Origin: an uncultured Planctomycetaceae bacterium
GTDB taxonomy: Bacteria > Planctomycetota > Planctomycetia > Gemmatales > Gemmataceae
Length of the DNA: 64,000 nucleotides
NCBI GenBank assembly: GCA_937888715.1
Contig: CALARU010000286.1
Coordinates: 1-64,000, forward strand
Direction of reading: 5' to 3'
A model generated the notes under the pieces. The model searched no databases. It saw nothing but the letters and a program-made list of their open reading frames with translations, and was not told where the DNA came from. Both the position numbers and the translations under genes were made by a program. Numbering within the stretch: the first letter of the stretch is position 1; each line of letters starts with the position of its first letter. Below, piece after piece: positions 57,055 through 64,000 of the stretch.

Positions 57055-58173
57055 ATGTGTCCCTTGGTATGCGGCATTGCGAGTTCCGTTCCGATAAACG
57101 ATCCCCGGCAGAACCTTGATTGGTCTGTCTGGCATAGTGATATTGCGTCTGGCAAATCGAGTTCAATCAATTCACATGTGCTAAGAATGGTTCTTTGGTT
57201 GGCGAGCCTTCCCTACGGGGCAAGTGTATGGTTGCGCAACATATTCTTTACAATTAAAATATTCAGGACAAAAAAAGTAGCAGTACCTGTGGTTTGCATA
57301 GGCAACCTGACTGCTGGGGGCACAGGAAAAACCCCGTGTGTTGAATGGCTGTGCAGGGTTCTTTGCTCGTTGGAATTGCGGGTTGCGATTTTAAGCCGTG
57401 GCTATGGCGGTGCGGGTGGTGCCAATGATGAAGCAATGGTGCTTGAAGATCGATTGCCCGATGTGCCACACCTTCAGGGGCCTGATAGATATCTGATAGC
57501 TCAATCAGCAATCGAAGAGTTGGAAAGCGAAGTGCTGGTATTGGATGATGGTTTTCAGCATCGCCAATTTGCAAGGGATTTAGATATTGTGTTAGTGGAT
57601 GCGACGAACCCGTGGGGTTATGGGTATTTACTTCCCCGCGGAACATTGCGGGAACCCAAGTCGGGATTAAAAAGAGCAGGGGCAGTGGTGATAACCCGTG
57701 CGGATCAAGTGGCAGAGGAAAAGCTAACAAGCCTTCGAAATGAGATTAGCAAAATAGCTCCGGGTTTGGTGCTGTGCGAAGCCATTCATCAGCCTGTGGA
57801 GATGATTTGTTGGGAAAGTGAATCGATGGAGTTGGAAGAGATCAAGGGTAGGAAAGTGCTTGCGTTTTGTGGCATAGGAAACCCCGGATCATTTATCAAA
57901 ACATTAGAAAACATAGGCGCAAGTGTAGTGGGGAGCAGAGTGTTTCCGGATCATCATGCGTATACAAGAAATGATATTGCGGATTTGATTGAATGGGCTT
58001 CCCAGCTTGCAGATGGGGATACACTTTTGGTTACAACCCACAAGGATTTGGTGAAAATTCGCACTTCTTCCCTGGGTGGGAATCTGCTTTATGCGCTTCG
58101 GGTTGAAATGCGATTTTTGTCTGGTGCGGAACAGCTTCAAGCATTGGTGCGATCCAAAACGCTTTTAGTTTAG
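57055..58173 (+). CDS. lpxK: Tetraacyldisaccharide 4'-kinase LpxK
   Basis: LpxK phosphorylates the lipid A precursor at the 4' position at the inner membrane. Walker A GNLTAGGTGKTP, the SRGYGG motif and DDGFQHR are all present, as is the N-terminal membrane-associated segment (VLWLASLPYGASVWLRN). The start is uncertain: ATG 57055 gives 372 aa with about 20 residues unlike the family, and no good internal start with a ribosome site was found between 57060 and 57186. It begins a run of lipid A/core genes and implies that this organism makes true lipid A. Confidence 0.92.
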   Translation: MCPLVCGIASSVPINDPRQNLDWSVWHSDIASGKSSSINSHVLRMVLWLASLPYGASVWLRNIFFTIKIFRTKKVAVPVVCIGNLTAGGTGKTPCVEWLCRVLCSLELRVAILSRGYGGAGGANDEAMVLEDRLPDVPHLQGPDRYLIAQSAIEELESEVLVLDDGFQHRQFARDLDIVLVDATNPWGYGYLLPRGTLREPKSGLKRAGAVVITRADQVAEEKLTSLRNEISKIAPGLVLCEAIHQPVEMICWESESMELEEIKGRKVLAFCGIGNPGSFIKTLENIGASVVGSRVFPDHHAYTRNDIADLIEWASQLADGDTLLVTTHKDLVKIRTSSLGGNLLYALRVEMRFLSGAEQLQALVRSKTLLV

Positions 58174-58204
58174 TCCGAGAGCTTTTTAAATGGAGGATTT
58201 TATA

Positions 58205-59191
58205 GTGACTTATACTGGAATCAAAAATATGAACAAACCTTTCGATCTTCAGGGTTTGAAAACCTACGATTTGGCATCTAGACCTTCCAAGGTGTTCAAG
58301 GAAGATTTGGGCAAGCCATTAAATGAGCACGCATCGGTTGCTGATTTGATTGATTCACTTCCCAATCAACTTGCTGGCAAAAGCATTCGCAGGGTGAGAG
58401 ATCATCTGGTAAGAGCGGGATCCAATGGTAATACCGTGGTCGCAGCCATTGGCGGGCATGTGATTAAAACCGGCTGTGCTCCCTACCTGATTGATTGGAT
58501 TCAGAAGGGGATTATCAAGGCGGTAGCAATGAATGGGTCTGCTGCGATCCATGATGTGGAATTGGCCTTGGAAGGAAAAACGAGCGAAGATGTTGGCACG
58601 ATGTTGAATGATGGGAAGTTTGGCATGGCCCGCGAAACCGCAGATTTCTTTGCACTCGCAACCCGCAGGGGCGCAGATGAGGGCATTGGCCTTGGCGCTG
58701 CTGTTGGGGCTTTGCTTGAAGAAAAATACTGCAAGGCTCCCGAAGTTAGCCTTTTGCTTGCAGCCCGTAAAGCTGGTATCCCTTGCACCGTTCATGTCGC
58801 TGTGGGCACCGATATCGTTCATATGCATCCCCATGTAAGTGGTGCTGCCATTGGTGAATCAAGTCACTTGGATTTTCGCATTCTTTGCTCCGTGGTTAGC
58901 ACCATGGCTAATGGTGTGTGGATGAATTTGGGCAGTGCGGTGATCATGCCTGAAGTTCTTTTAAAGGCAGTGAGTGTTGTCAGGAATTTCAACTACGATT
59001 TGGATGGGCTTGTTTGTGTGAATATGGACAAGGAATCGCGTTACCGCAGTACGGTGAATGTACTCAATCGGCCTTCTTCCGAAGGCATTGAAATTACCGG
59101 GCATCATGAAATCATGTTGCCATTGTTGCATGCATCTGTGGCAGCGGCATGGGCTGCAAGGCCGAAGTTTAATGAATCCAAAGCGGCCTAA
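58205..59191 (+). CDS. Deoxyhypusine synthase-like protein in LPS-core locus
   Basis: 328 residues from GTG 58205, chosen because GGAGG (58192-58196) is 8 nt upstream; an in-frame ATG at 58190 would overlap that site. The sequence resembles the deoxyhypusine-synthase fold: NTVVAAIGGHVIKTG, IIKAVAMNGSAAIHDVELAL, IPCTVHVAVGTDIVHMHP, GVWMNLGSAVIMPEVLLKA. The usual DHS catalytic Lys region is not recognisable. Bacteria lack hypusine, so the substrate is likely different; location between lpxK and hldE suggests an envelope-sugar or amine modification role. Family call moderate, function unknown. Confidence 0.65.
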   Translation: MTYTGIKNMNKPFDLQGLKTYDLASRPSKVFKEDLGKPLNEHASVADLIDSLPNQLAGKSIRRVRDHLVRAGSNGNTVVAAIGGHVIKTGCAPYLIDWIQKGIIKAVAMNGSAAIHDVELALEGKTSEDVGTMLNDGKFGMARETADFFALATRRGADEGIGLGAAVGALLEEKYCKAPEVSLLLAARKAGIPCTVHVAVGTDIVHMHPHVSGAAIGESSHLDFRILCSVVSTMANGVWMNLGSAVIMPEVLLKAVSVVRNFNYDLDGLVCVNMDKESRYRSTVNVLNRPSSEGIEITGHHEIMLPLLHASVAAAWAARPKFNESKAA

Positions 59192-59206: not shown

Positions 59207-60754
59207 ATGTTGAACGAAATGAAGCCCAGACTGGTTACGCCTGAAGTTTTAATGCAGCAGGGAACCGACCTTGTTGATCTTGTACACAAGCTTGGGCAAC
59301 CAAGGATTCTTGTGCTGGGTGATCTGATGTTGGATCGATATGTTTGGGGTGATGCAGAGCGCATCAGCCAGGAAGCGCCTGTGATTTTGCTTCGGGCAGA
59401 GCGCAGGGAAGAGCGCCTAGGTGGGGCTAGCAGTGTTGCAACCATGCTTAAGGCAATTGGCGCAAAAGTGCAAATTGCGGGCGTTGTTGGTAACGATTCC
59501 AATGGCGAGCAGTTGCGCAGCATGTTGATTGAGCAGGGGATTGATCCTGAAACAGTGTTGGTGGATTCTGAGCGGCCCACCACAGTTAAGGAACGCTACA
59601 TAGGCAAAGCACAGCACAGACATCCACAGCAGATCATTCGGGTTGATTACGAGGTGCGTGATCATCTTTCCAAGCATTTAGAAACCCGGCTTGCAGAATT
59701 GATCAAACGCAACATCAATGATTTTGATCTCGTTTTGGTTAGTGATTACGACAAGGGTGTATGTACCCCAGGCTTGCTTGCAAGTGTGATTTCCGATTGC
59801 AAAGCCATTGGCAAGAAAGTGATTGTAGATCCTATTAGGGGTAGCGATTATCGCAAATATCATGGCGTTTCGACAATGACTCCCAACAGGCTTGAAGCTG
59901 GCCTTGCTACAGGCAGGGTGATCGAAACTAATGAAGATGGCTTGGCTGCTGCTGCATTATTGCGCGAGCGACTTGATATGGAGGCTGCCATTATTACTCT
60001 TGATAAAGAGGGGATGGCTCTTTCGCACCAAGATGGGCGCTCTGATATTTTTCCTACGAGAATTAGGCAGGTTTACGACATCACTGGCGCAGGCGACATG
60101 GTGCTTGCGGTGTTGGGCATGGCACTTGCTGCAGGTGCTGATTACCCCGAAGCCATCAAGCTTGCAAATATTGCAGGTGGATTGGAAGTAGAAAAGATTG
60201 GCGTGGTCCCGGTTACTAAAGCCGAAATGATTGAAGATATCTGTAAATCTTCCCTTGCTACCAAGGGCGATAACCTTTCTGGTATCGAAAAAATGATGGG
60301 TCGCGATTCGCTTCTTCGTGAACTTGAACAGCACCGGAAGCTAGGTAGAAAAGTTGTATTTACCAATGGCTGCTTTGATGTACTTCATGCGGGCCATGTT
60401 CAGTATTTGCGCGAAGCTAGGGCCCAGGGTGATATCCTTATCGTTGGTTTGAATAGCGATTCAAGCGTGCAAATGTTGAAAGGCCCAACCAGGCCCGTCA
60501 ATAAGATTGATGCCCGCTCCGTGGTTATTGCTGGCCTCGAATGTGTAAGTTATCTTGCTATTTTTGAAGAAAAAACACCTATCGATTTAATTCGCTTCCT
60601 TAAACCTGATGTTTTGGTCAAGGGTGCTGATTACCACAAAGATGAAGTGGTAGGCGGGCAATTTGTTGAAAGCTATGGAGGCAGGGTTCACCTTGCTTCG
60701 CTTCGTAAAGGTTTTTCTACTACCGGTATTTTAGAGCGTCTTGGAGCGGCTTAA
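59207..60754 (+). CDS. hldE: Bifunctional heptose-7-phosphate kinase / heptose-1-phosphate nucleotidyltransferase
   Basis: 515-residue HldE (RfaE). The N-terminal ribokinase-type domain (about 20-335) has LGGASSVATMLKAIGA and the GAGD anion hole (YDITGAGDMVLA). The C-terminal nucleotidyltransferase (about 370-515) has FTNGCFDVLHAGHVQYL with HxGH and the KGADYHKDEVVGG block. It makes ADP-heptose precursors for the LPS inner core. AGGGGAAG precedes ATG 59207. The next gene, a heptosyltransferase, starts about 25 nt later, so substrate supply and transfer are adjacent. Confidence 0.97.
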   Translation: MLNEMKPRLVTPEVLMQQGTDLVDLVHKLGQPRILVLGDLMLDRYVWGDAERISQEAPVILLRAERREERLGGASSVATMLKAIGAKVQIAGVVGNDSNGEQLRSMLIEQGIDPETVLVDSERPTTVKERYIGKAQHRHPQQIIRVDYEVRDHLSKHLETRLAELIKRNINDFDLVLVSDYDKGVCTPGLLASVISDCKAIGKKVIVDPIRGSDYRKYHGVSTMTPNRLEAGLATGRVIETNEDGLAAAALLRERLDMEAAIITLDKEGMALSHQDGRSDIFPTRIRQVYDITGAGDMVLAVLGMALAAGADYPEAIKLANIAGGLEVEKIGVVPVTKAEMIEDICKSSLATKGDNLSGIEKMMGRDSLLRELEQHRKLGRKVVFTNGCFDVLHAGHVQYLREARAQGDILIVGLNSDSSVQMLKGPTRPVNKIDARSVVIAGLECVSYLAIFEEKTPIDLIRFLKPDVLVKGADYHKDEVVGGQFVESYGGRVHLASLRKGFSTTGILERLGAA

Positions 60755-60779
60755 TTTTTCTACAGGGATGTTTGATTCT

Positions 60780-61847
60780 ATGAATGTTGCGATTTTTCTT
60801 CCAGGATGGATTGGTGATGCGGTGATGGCTACTCCTGCCATCAGGGCGCTCAAACTCCATTTCCCCTCGGGAAAATTCGTCTGCGTTTCTAAGTCTTATG
60901 TTGCTCCCATTCTTGTAGGCAACCCTTGGTTTGATTCCATGATTCTTACAGGTGGAAAAAAAGATCTATCTTTGTTAGAGGCTTCATCTCAACTCAAAAA
61001 AGAAAAAATTGATGTCGCTGTTTTGTTTCCCAATTCATTCAGGGCAGGCCTGCTTGCGTGGATGGGGGGTTGCAAACGATCGATAGGATTCAACCGCTAT
61101 TTCAGAAAATGGCTACTCTCTGATTCGCTTGAATCTCCACAAGATGCAAAAGGCAAGTTCATTCCTTCGCCCGCCATTGATTCTTATAACCAGTTAGCCA
61201 TGGTTGCAGGGGCCTCGAATCCTGGGTATGAAATGCAGCTTTTTACTTCAACAGTTGAAGAAGAAATGGCTGAACAAGTCTGGCGGTTTGCAGCTTTCAA
61301 AGATAAGCCGGAAGTTATCTGCTTGAATCCTGGTGCGGCTTTTGGTGCTTCCAAGCTTTGGCCTGCGGAGCATTTTGCTTCTCTTGCACGCGAACTTATC
61401 AGGCTTAGAGGGGCTGGCATTCTTGTCATGTGTGGGCCCAAAGAAAGCGAACTCGCACTTCGCATTACTTCGCTTATTGGCCATCCTTCAGCACGATGCC
61501 TTGCAGAACCTGGCATGCCCGATCTTTCGCTTGGCTTAAGCAAGGCTTGCATTAAGAAAAGCCAATTGCTGGTAACAACGGATAGTGGGCCGAGGCATTT
61601 TGCGGCGGCGTTTAACAAGCCTGTGGTTTCATTGTTCGGCCCCACGCACATAGAGTGGACTGATACTTATCATAAGAAGGAAATCAACCTGCAGAAGAAG
61701 TTGCCTTGTGGGCCTTGTCAGAAAAGGGTTTGCCCGCTGGAGCATCAGTGTATGAAGGAATTGATGCCTTTGGATGTGTTGAGCGCGGGTGTTAGTTTGT
61801 TGGATCAGCAGTTAGAAACTGCAAGGTTTTTAAGGTCGGTGGGATAA
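60780..61847 (+). CDS. waaF: ADP-heptose:LPS heptosyltransferase (WaaF-type)
   Basis: 355 residues from ATG 60780 (MNVAIFLPGWIGDAVMATP); in-frame ATGs at 60768 and 60741 give longer forms that overlap or abut hldE. GT9 family features: N-terminal GWIGDAVMATPAIRAL, nucleotide-binding PGAAFGASKLWPAEHFA and acceptor/donor motif TTDSGPRHFAAAFNKPVVSLFGPT. A Cys-rich end (CGPCQKRVCPLEHQC) is typical of WaaF. It adds heptose to the LPS core at the cytoplasmic face of the inner membrane. WaaC/WaaF distinction is not certain. Confidence 0.92.
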   Translation: MNVAIFLPGWIGDAVMATPAIRALKLHFPSGKFVCVSKSYVAPILVGNPWFDSMILTGGKKDLSLLEASSQLKKEKIDVAVLFPNSFRAGLLAWMGGCKRSIGFNRYFRKWLLSDSLESPQDAKGKFIPSPAIDSYNQLAMVAGASNPGYEMQLFTSTVEEEMAEQVWRFAAFKDKPEVICLNPGAAFGASKLWPAEHFASLARELIRLRGAGILVMCGPKESELALRITSLIGHPSARCLAEPGMPDLSLGLSKACIKKSQLLVTTDSGPRHFAAAFNKPVVSLFGPTHIEWTDTYHKKEINLQKKLPCGPCQKRVCPLEHQCMKELMPLDVLSAGVSLLDQQLETARFLRSVG

Positions 61848-61864
61848 TACTTGGAGTGAGTGTT

Positions 61865-64000
61865 TTGATTTCAAGGATGTTAAGAGTAATGGGTGTAATT
61901 TTTTTGCCAGTGGCTGGCTTGCTGGGGAAGATTTCAAACATGTTTTCGTCTTCAAAGAATGGTTTTCTGGTGATTCGTCCCAGCAAAAGAGCCATGCTAT
62001 TTTCCCAAGGTATTGAAAAGCCGGAAGATATTTTTAACTTGGAAGGAATCAGGGTTACAGGCCATGGTTGGAAAACAGGCAGGCATGTAGCAAGCGTAAC
62101 TTTGGGGAATGGTAAAAACGAAGCTCGCGGCTTTTTGAAAAAAGAACACAATCGGGGTTGGGTAAAAACAATCTTGGCGCATTCAGCCGGAGTATTACAC
62201 GAAGCACGCATTCTTAAAGCACTCGAGCACGAAGGGATTCCAGCTCCTTTATGGGTTGCAGTAGGCAAAACCAGCCTGGGCCATTCTTTCCTCTTAGTAG
62301 AAGAAATTCCTGATGCTGTAAATCTTAAAACTTATTTTGCAGAGCAGCGAAGTCGAAATCAGCGTAAAGAAGTATTGCGCAGGCTTGCATGGATTCTGGC
62401 CCGGATGCACACCCTTGGTTTTTCACATGTTGATTTGTATTCGAAGCATGTTTTGGTTAACCCTGAAACCCGGATGGTTTATCTGCTCGATTGGCAAAGA
62501 TCTTTCAGGATGCGGGATCTGCCTTGGAATATAAGGTCGGGCAATCTTGCAAGGCTTCACGCCACCTTGGACGAAAGTATTCTAAGGCCCAGAGAAAAGC
62601 TTGGGCTCCTGACTTCCTACCTTGAAGCTACTGCTCATTTTTCCCAAGGGAATTCTAACCTCCCTCTATTTCATCTGCTTGCACTCGATATCGATCGCGA
62701 AGCCATCAGGCTTTTAAGCTACAGGCATGTTCGCGAAAAGCGTAACACCCAGGTTGCATTGCAGCCACAAAATTGGATTTTCCTCGAAAAGCAAAATCTC
62801 TTTGTCACCTCCATTTGCTCTGAAGATGAAAAATTACACCTCGACCAATTACTATTAGAAGCAAAAAAGCTTCATGTAAATGGAAAGGTTGTCCTTCGAA
62901 AAACAATGCCGTGCGGTGATTCTGAACTTCGTTTGCAGTATCGAAATATTTCCTGGTTTGAATCGTTCTTTTTTTCTTACTTTAAATCCAGTAAAGCCAA
63001 GGCACCTGAGTATTCCCACGCTGCAATTCTTTACAAGATTCAACGCCATGGCGTGTGTACCGGGAAAATCCTTGCTCTTGGTATTCGCAAGAAGAAGCTC
63101 TTCTCACAAGAATCGTTTCTACTTACGAGAGAGCCTGCAAAGACTTTGCCCCTTTATGAATGGTTTCAACAGGGAACAAGCACCGAGATTCTGGGCAGGC
63201 AGCAGATGGTTTTTGAAGCAATGGGTAGGATGCTTGCCAAAGTTCATTCCTCTGGTTGTTATCTGAAGGGAAAGAAGACGTTGTTTTTAAGGGTTGTGGA
63301 ATCCGATAAACCCCAGGTTTATCTTGATGCTGCAAATTGCCTCGAGGAAGCTCCGGTTGCAAATCCCAAATGGGCCAGCATCGATATGGCGAAAATGAAA
63401 CAAGTGCTTCGATCTTTGGGCGCACAACAGCAAGGTATCGTCAGCTTTCGTAAAGCCTATTCTGACGAGATCGGCAATGATCAGCAGATGAAAAATTCTA
63501 CATCCCAAATTGGAACAGGAGTTCTTGCAATGGATGTAAATTCGGGCGGAACAAAGCTTGCAATCATCCGCAAAACTGATTTACAAATAAATGAAATGAA
63601 CATGAATGAAATGCAAAATGGTGTAGCAATTCAAGTTCAAAAAGATGGTAGCTATGTGAAGTTTTATTCTAGCCCCGAATGGATTGCCCATTATGGTGAA
63701 GATTGGACAACACGTGTAATGGATATTGGGGTAACGGATAGGTTTCATTCGAAGCAGGGTCGTTCGGTGGGTCGGATTATTCTGCCTGGCAAGGATGGTA
63801 AACCTGAGCTTTGTTTCTATTTAAAAAGGCATTACAAGCTTTCGTTTTGGGAAGGATTGATGGGTTGGTTGTTCCCTAAAAAAGCATGGTCCCCTGCTTT
63901 GCAAGAATTTCATCATCTTGCAACAGCGAGACAATTGGGGCTACAGGTGCCTGAAACCGTTGCGGCGGTGGAGTTCATAGGGCCGGGCGCTAAGCTTCGA
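61865..64000 (+). CDS. Multi-domain WaaP/Kdo-kinase-like protein, 3' end beyond window
   Basis: One uninterrupted frame of at least 712 codons continues past the right edge. TTG 61865 has GGAG 8 nt upstream; ATG 61877 is the alternative. The first kinase unit (about residues 40-290) has a WaaP-type catalytic loop MHTLGFSHVDLYSKHVLV and metal Asp in VYLLDWQRS. A second unit (about 300-540) has the equivalent helix but HSSGCYLKGKKTLFL, lacking the catalytic Asp, so it is pseudokinase-like. A third unit begins near residue 590 (YLKRHYKLSFWEGLMGWLFP, then LATARQLGLQVPE) and is cut by the window end. WaaP kinases phosphorylate LPS core heptose; three units in one protein is unusual. Confidence 0.8.
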   Translation, partial: MISRMLRVMGVIFLPVAGLLGKISNMFSSSKNGFLVIRPSKRAMLFSQGIEKPEDIFNLEGIRVTGHGWKTGRHVASVTLGNGKNEARGFLKKEHNRGWVKTILAHSAGVLHEARILKALEHEGIPAPLWVAVGKTSLGHSFLLVEEIPDAVNLKTYFAEQRSRNQRKEVLRRLAWILARMHTLGFSHVDLYSKHVLVNPETRMVYLLDWQRSFRMRDLPWNIRSGNLARLHATLDESILRPREKLGLLTSYLEATAHFSQGNSNLPLFHLLALDIDREAIRLLSYRHVREKRNTQVALQPQNWIFLEKQNLFVTSICSEDEKLHLDQLLLEAKKLHVNGKVVLRKTMPCGDSELRLQYRNISWFESFFFSYFKSSKAKAPEYSHAAILYKIQRHGVCTGKILALGIRKKKLFSQESFLLTREPAKTLPLYEWFQQGTSTEILGRQQMVFEAMGRMLAKVHSSGCYLKGKKTLFLRVVESDKPQVYLDAANCLEEAPVANPKWASIDMAKMKQVLRSLGAQQQGIVSFRKAYSDEIGNDQQMKNSTSQIGTGVLAMDVNSGGTKLAIIRKTDLQINEMNMNEMQNGVAIQVQKDGSYVKFYSSPEWIAHYGEDWTTRVMDIGVTDRFHSKQGRSVGRIILPGKDGKPELCFYLKRHYKLSFWEGLMGWLFPKKAWSPALQEFHHLATARQLGLQVPETVAAVEFIGPGAKLR

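Follow-up and report, generated by a model that had tools for sequence, protein, structure and literature searches.

A three-unit WaaP-type kinase gene with a conserved, catalytically dead middle unit in a planctomycete lipopolysaccharide-core operon

We analyzed a stretch of 64,000 nucleotides from an uncultured planctomycete (contig CALARU010000286.1, positions 1 to 64,000; hereafter the window). Its right-hand end carries lpxK, a GSU2086-family gene, hldE and waaF, followed by a gene encoding three successive units of the Kdo/WaaP kinase type. The features, with the scores of the models that identified them, are as follows.

57055..58173, + strand: lpxK (tetraacyldisaccharide 4'-kinase, lipid A synthesis); TIGR00682 197 bits (cut-off 92), PF02606 267
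58190..59191, + strand: GSU2086-family protein, deoxyhypusine-synthase-like fold family; NF052581 364 bits (cut-off 250)
59207..60754, + strand: hldE, encoding the bifunctional heptose-7-phosphate kinase / heptose-1-phosphate adenylyltransferase; TIGR02199 193.7 bits (cut-off 181.5), HldE model 430.6 (cut-off 521)
60741..61847, + strand: waaF (lipopolysaccharide heptosyltransferase II); TIGR02195 148.8 bits (cut-off 134.6); 60741 is the start of the longest reading frame, and the true start may be internal
61856..64000, + strand: three-unit kinase gene, window part (715 of 876 codons; the rest lies on the contig, to 64486)
61856..61927, + strand: hydrophobic N-terminal helix, residues 1-24 (VSVLISRMLRVMGVIFLPVAGLLG), from a Kyte-Doolittle scan
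61961..62755, + strand: unit 1, residues 36-300, Kdo/WaaP-type kinase with intact catalytic set; PF06293 69.7 bits
62753..63490, + strand: unit 2, residues 300-545, WaaP-family pseudokinase; PF06293 32.7 bits
63491..63691, + strand: linker between units 2 and 3, residues 546-612, the site of the gene boundary in most relatives
63692..64000, + strand: N-terminal part (residues 613-715) of unit 3 (residues 613-876), WaaP-like kinase; PF06293 73.8 bits

Translation placed the start of the kinase frame at a GTG codon at 61856, nine bases beyond the stop region of waaF, and the frame remains open for 715 codons to the end of the window. An earlier note, made from the letters of this DNA, had reported at least 712 codons without a stop from 61865; the open frame was borne out, with the start moved to 61856. 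When the sequence was extended to the right, as that note had proposed, the frame continued on the same contig to 64486 (stop codon included), giving a protein of 876 amino acids in which the third unit is complete.

In most relatives, the units are encoded by two overlapping or adjacent genes, and the single frame might thus reflect an assembly or sequencing artefact that joined two genuine genes. We examined this together with the missed stop or frameshift raised in the earlier note, and rejected all of them. Five further genomes of the genus carry the frame unbroken (891-896 codons between stops, 76-97% identity); the sixth, G002, has no frameshift, and the only interruption there is a run of N marking an assembly gap. 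Six assemblies of this genus, together with 14 more distantly related fused members among the loci read, show the single frame without a break, and the linker that joins units 2 and 3 is itself conserved. A joining artefact is therefore practically out of the question. A contig labeled Candidatus Kuenenia stuttgartiensis (L078, CAMDHK010000086.1) also bears the kinase gene of this freshwater planctomycete, at 97% identity, and this public label is probably wrong.

The Kdo/WaaP model PF06293 covers three stretches of the 876-residue protein (E = 5.9e-49), and each unit, searched in isolation, exceeds the curated cut-off of 21.3 bits with the score listed above. To place the three units in context, we scored 47 members of the family to which the window belongs (probably Gemmataceae), comprising 19 fused proteins and 28 split pairs. 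Units 1 and 2 lie on one polypeptide in all 47, while unit 3 is fused to them in 19 and is encoded by the next gene, usually overlapping, in the other 28. All three units were jointly aligned and scored for the β-3 lysine, the helix-C glutamate, the catalytic aspartate and the metal-binding aspartate.

Units 1 and 3 both retain this set. Unit 1 carries K95 (62138-62140), E116, H191-V-D193-L-Y with D193 at 62432-62434, and D212-W213 (62489-62494), confirming the HxDLYxxH loop and DW metal motif initially read there; its loop, HVDLYSKH, has the tyrosine and histidine of the WaaP type. The further unit that had been seen to be cut by the window edge proved, on the contig, to be an intact WaaP-like kinase, with K657 (63824-63826) and E684 (63905-63907) inside the window and HKDLYLCHF (770-778, including H770-K-D772) and IDLHR (798-802, including D799-L-H-R) past its edge. 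Across the family, the full set was present in 46 of 47 copies of unit 1, the sole exception having glutamate for the catalytic aspartate, and in 47 of 47 copies of unit 3. Every unit 3 also keeps the equivalents of K51, H161, D163, Y165, H168, D188 and R191, residues that mutation has shown to be essential in Pseudomonas aeruginosa WaaP (PMC6147952). WaaP (6dfl) was the closest solved structure for both units (E = 3.7e-14 for unit 3 and 2.1e-6 for unit 1). Judged from these residues, units 1 and 3 are apparently active. The best NCBIfam model for unit 3 was RfaP (NF011703; 90.4 bits for the unit and 138.2 for the whole protein, cut-off 170), and the best equivalog for unit 1 was KdkA (NF002475; 49.2 bits, cut-off 142). 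Because no unit reached the RfaP or KdkA equivalog cut-off, neither unit 1 nor unit 3 was assigned to these specific functions.

The genomic setting of the gene is conserved. The order hldE, waaF, kinase units and a GT4 glycosyltransferase recurs among the relatives, often with the GSU2086-family gene and lpxK upstream. waaF, which lies immediately upstream of the kinase gene, is its neighbor in 28 of 28 split loci and 18 of 19 fused ones, the remaining locus (L036) being on a contig that begins there, and the downstream GT4 gene is present in 47 of 47. The link to the lipopolysaccharide (LPS) core proposed in the earlier note is thus well supported by the operon. The GSU2086-family gene is a regular member of the LPS-core operon in two families. 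In one locus of the sister family (L058:4879-7146), a single protein of 756 amino acids combines the unit 3 kinase with the GT4 that follows it, suggesting that the kinase and the GT4 act jointly.

Protein kinases also belong to this superfamily, and unit 1 gives weak matches to the Bud32, APH and Pkinase models, so that the protein might be read as a protein kinase or signaling protein, similar to InaA or to Ser/Thr kinases, rather than as an LPS sugar kinase. However, the top-scoring models are Kdo/WaaP, RfaP and KdkA, the hldE-waaF operon position beside lpxK is conserved across two families, and the WaaP-specific residues Y165, H168 and DLHR are found in unit 3 of all 47 relatives. A role in protein phosphorylation is accordingly very unlikely.

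Unit 2 differs from its neighbors in that the Lys/Glu/Asp/Asp set is wholly missing. The position of its catalytic loop (63245-63277) reads HSSGCYLKGKK (residues 464-474). This stretch had previously been interpreted as a dead loop, and the loss of the aspartate stands; the histidine of HSSG, however, is not that of the HRD motif, whose place is taken by Leu470, but aligns with a histidine that precedes the catalytic loop and is common to the three units. None of the 47 relatives has HxD or the β-3 lysine in unit 2; at most two of the four catalytic residues occur in any of them, and 30 have none. Unit 2 is dead in all 47, which span about 36 genera, and we therefore rejected the idea that it is a relic of one genome or genus.

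Profile comparison nevertheless favors a retained kinase fold in unit 2. Its profile matched unit 1 (E = 9e-20, 214 columns), unit 3 (E = 4e-10, 196 columns) and solved WaaP 6dfl (E = 1.5e-8), which speaks against the possibility, raised at the outset, that the unit might not fold as a kinase. Because the profile is nearer to unit 1 than to unit 3, unit 2 is most simply a duplicate of unit 1. AlphaFold2, for which the input alignments held near-identical, genus-level sequences only, gave a low pLDDT (33.7 for the whole protein and 40.4 for unit 2), and the fold of unit 2 thus rests on sequence profiles.

The middle unit, though dead, is maintained. We estimated dN/dS by simple counting within the genus, using pairs of low divergence that were not saturated. 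For unit 2, the ratio was 0.09 between the window and L076, 0.14 between the window and L073, 0.08 between L073 and L078, and 0.145 between L074 and L078. In the same comparison, unit 1 gave 0.03-0.08 and unit 3 gave 0.007-0.04; unit 2 is the fastest-evolving of the three, and it is under clear purifying selection. The linker, at 0.06-0.17, is also constrained. Arg397 is conserved in 83% of unit 2 sequences and in at most 30% of units 1 and 3.

A decayed duplicate that merely spaces units 1 and 3 would account for the faster evolution of unit 2 relative to its neighbors, for its low identity within the family (often 12-23% to the window) and for the 30 relatives with no intact active-site residue. 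A spacer is nevertheless unlikely: unit 2 has remained a full-length domain in almost every member, even in the split genes, where it forms the C-terminal half and nothing is fused behind it, its dN/dS is only about 0.1, and motifs at the core of the fold persist throughout the family, as does Arg397, in a manner particular to this unit. A unit kept for a non-catalytic purpose, possibly as a scaffold or regulator, is the reading that we prefer.

We then examined how the three units are distributed. Of 95 genomes of the family, 86 gave a strong match to the unit 2 profile (E below 1e-15). The sister family, where units 1 and 3 are neighboring genes with no unit 2, yielded only matches resembling unit 1, and 391 other genomes sampled from the phylum yielded two weaker matches, both to solitary proteins. 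A shallow search that scored two candidates per genome found a colinear three-unit protein in none of these 391 genomes outside the family, and the plasmids searched gave no match. In a tree of units 1 and 3, the relatives that lack unit 2 form a separate clade (support 100/99), and the fused proteins fall on one side of a weakly supported branch (76/95); in single-unit trees, the fused and split states require two to three changes. Because the tree of units 1 and 3 places the fused sequences together, a repeated origin of the fusion was unsupported, the two to three changes in the single-unit trees notwithstanding. The simplest history starts from two adjacent kinase genes, followed by duplication of unit 1 and loss of catalysis in the copy as the family arose, and then by one fusion to unit 3; a gain of unit 2 in the family is a simpler reading than its loss in the sister family. 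Genus g18 and G107 (L041:4108-5007; the genomes of L080, L081, L085 and L086) carry an extra stand-alone unit 3 besides the fused protein, located elsewhere in the genome (e.g., G023:C170 and G087:C140).

The fused proteins share two further features. A hydrophobic segment lies directly before unit 1 in 19 of 19 fused proteins and in none of the 28 split ones (Kyte-Doolittle scan), with a mean hydropathy of 1.55-2.8 over 19 residues. It is usually followed by arginine or lysine, as expected for a helix whose attached kinases would be cytoplasmic. The segment may be an inner-membrane anchor; in the genus of the window it is weaker than in the other fused relatives, with two arginines inside, and there it could instead be an amphipathic membrane helix. 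Since the fused proteins form what is essentially a single clade, helix and fusion make up one evolutionary association rather than 19.

The second feature concerns the surface that binds acyl-ACP, which stabilizes P. aeruginosa WaaP through basic residues including R226 (PMC6147952). We compared the positions of K140, R141, R221, R222, R226 and R229, whereas R237 was unalignable. The R226 position was the most discriminating column, with arginine in unit 3 of none of the 19 fused and 21 of the 28 split forms; K140, R141, R222 and R229 are mostly basic, and R221 never is. As a change correlated with fusion, the loss of R226 was set aside, because the tree offers just one or two independent contrasts, which allow no test. 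More generally, the fusion, the helix and the other changes mark one clade, and their association is therefore not independent functional evidence.

These data also bear on the idea that unit 2 is a module binding a substrate or carrier (lipid A-core or acyl-ACP) rather than an allosteric partner of the kinases. The need of WaaP for acyl-ACP for its stability, with the involvement of R226 (PMC6147952), would fit such a role, as would the absence of that arginine from the fused unit 3 and its presence in most split forms. Yet the split forms, which have unit 2, mostly keep R226, so that the change tracks the fusion or the helix rather than unit 2, and R221 is non-basic even in relatives without unit 2. 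With the one or two independent contrasts on the tree, we consider a binding module rather improbable and retain an allosteric or scaffolding partner as the preferred role of unit 2.

In addition to the operon, the genome carries one gene with a Kdo transferase domain and two GT9 heptosyltransferase genes, and the culturable planctomycete Tuwongella immobilis, regarded as a relative, expresses KdsA, LpxK and WaaA (PMC8567305). On these grounds, the protein is read as a two-site inner-core kinase. More fully, we propose, with a probability of roughly 0.6, that it is a composite LPS inner-core kinase in which units 1 and 3 are active at two sites, the dead unit 2 is a scaffold or regulator, and, in the fused clade, the whole is tethered to the membrane. 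We infer that unit 1 (KdkA/WaaP-like) and unit 3 (WaaP-like) would each phosphorylate a different position of the Kdo-heptose inner core, in the step immediately following heptose addition by WaaF on the cytoplasmic side of the inner membrane. Unit 2 is probably a duplicate of a unit-1-like kinase fold that would have become catalytically inactive in the ancestor of the family; it may be retained as a scaffold without catalysis or as an allosteric partner, keeping both kinases, and perhaps the substrate, close to each other. In a single clade, to which the window belongs, the gene for units 1 and 2 would then have been fused to the downstream unit 3 gene, and the protein would have gained the hydrophobic N-terminal helix, probably as a membrane tether.

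The array of WaaP-type units described in the earlier note, one active, one dead and one further, is borne out by the three PF06293 stretches and by the dead unit 2 in every relative. From that array, the note had suggested regulated or multi-site phosphorylation. The multi-site part is reasonable, given two intact and dissimilar kinase units; phosphorylation may also be regulated, for which the conserved dead unit 2 is the sole basis.

Known systems provide several points of comparison. WaaP phosphorylates O-4 of heptose I. Unit 3 resembles WaaP/RfaP (PF06293; P. aeruginosa 6dfl, PMC6147952) in HxDxYxxH, DLHR, the essential catalytic and substrate residues and the pathway neighborhood (waaF). 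In contrast, WaaP/RfaP is one domain of about 260 amino acids, whereas here the domain is fused to two more units, one of them dead, and the ACP contacts R221 and R226 are non-basic. In the waaP-wapP-wapQ genes of Pseudomonas, PF06293-type kinases are adjacent in the core cluster, as here, and are thought to act on different heptose positions, but they are described as separate single-domain kinases, and neither of these papers describes a dead unit fused between them (PMC6147952, PMC8005017). Unit 1 is nearest, among equivalogs, to the KdkA/WaaY-type core kinases, although its KdkA score is far under the cut-off and its loop carries the WaaP-type tyrosine and histidine.

Eukaryotic kinase-pseudokinase pairs, such as JAK JH2-JH1 and FAM20A-FAM20C, likewise place a dead kinase fold beside active kinases. 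They serve as a working analogy only, being protein kinases rather than LPS sugar kinases and showing no detailed homology. Bacterial Ser/Thr pseudokinase families (PMC12599244) have conserved kinase folds without catalytic residues, as unit 2 does, but they are of the protein-kinase type, and the words WaaP, Kdo, lipopolysaccharide and tandem do not occur in the main text of that review. We found no WaaP-family pseudokinase described in the open-access literature. What is new here is the arrangement, in which known WaaP-type kinases are combined with a conserved dead unit.

A bolder possibility, which we hold as doubtful but worth stating, is that a family-wide pseudokinase controls or couples two LPS-core sugar kinases in one polypeptide tethered to the membrane, and that the fused clade, as the loss of the R226 equivalent suggests, may have replaced the dependence of WaaP on acyl-ACP. 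If true, this would be a pseudokinase regulating the phosphorylation of a glycolipid, not of a protein. Inner-core phosphates hold the outer membrane together via divalent cations; P. aeruginosa requires WaaP for viability (PMC6147952). The fusion of two core kinases with a conserved dead fold makes pseudokinase control in LPS synthesis testable, in a tethered and possibly channeling form of enzymes known elsewhere as individual soluble proteins, and the split members of the family provide natural controls.

Other WaaP-family proteins were also met in the searches. The window's own genome encodes a second multi-unit PF06293 protein (L052:1933-3696, G000:C193) of 588 amino acids with two units, in which both catalytic loops are apparently kept (HTDLHPGN and HRDLKSPN), and many genomes of the family and order encode relatives of about this length. 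A solitary WaaP-family protein of about 300 amino acids is found in another planctomycete family (L112:7935-8939 in G476, and L114-L120). All eight distinct members that were aligned (L113-L120) are without the catalytic and metal-binding aspartates and mostly without the β-3 lysine. In several genomes the neighbors of the gene are not heptose genes but a conserved reading frame of about 920 amino acids and a membrane protein, which by eye resemble polA and DUF368, respectively. Going by their residues, these solitary proteins are possibly a second, separate family of WaaP-type pseudokinases.
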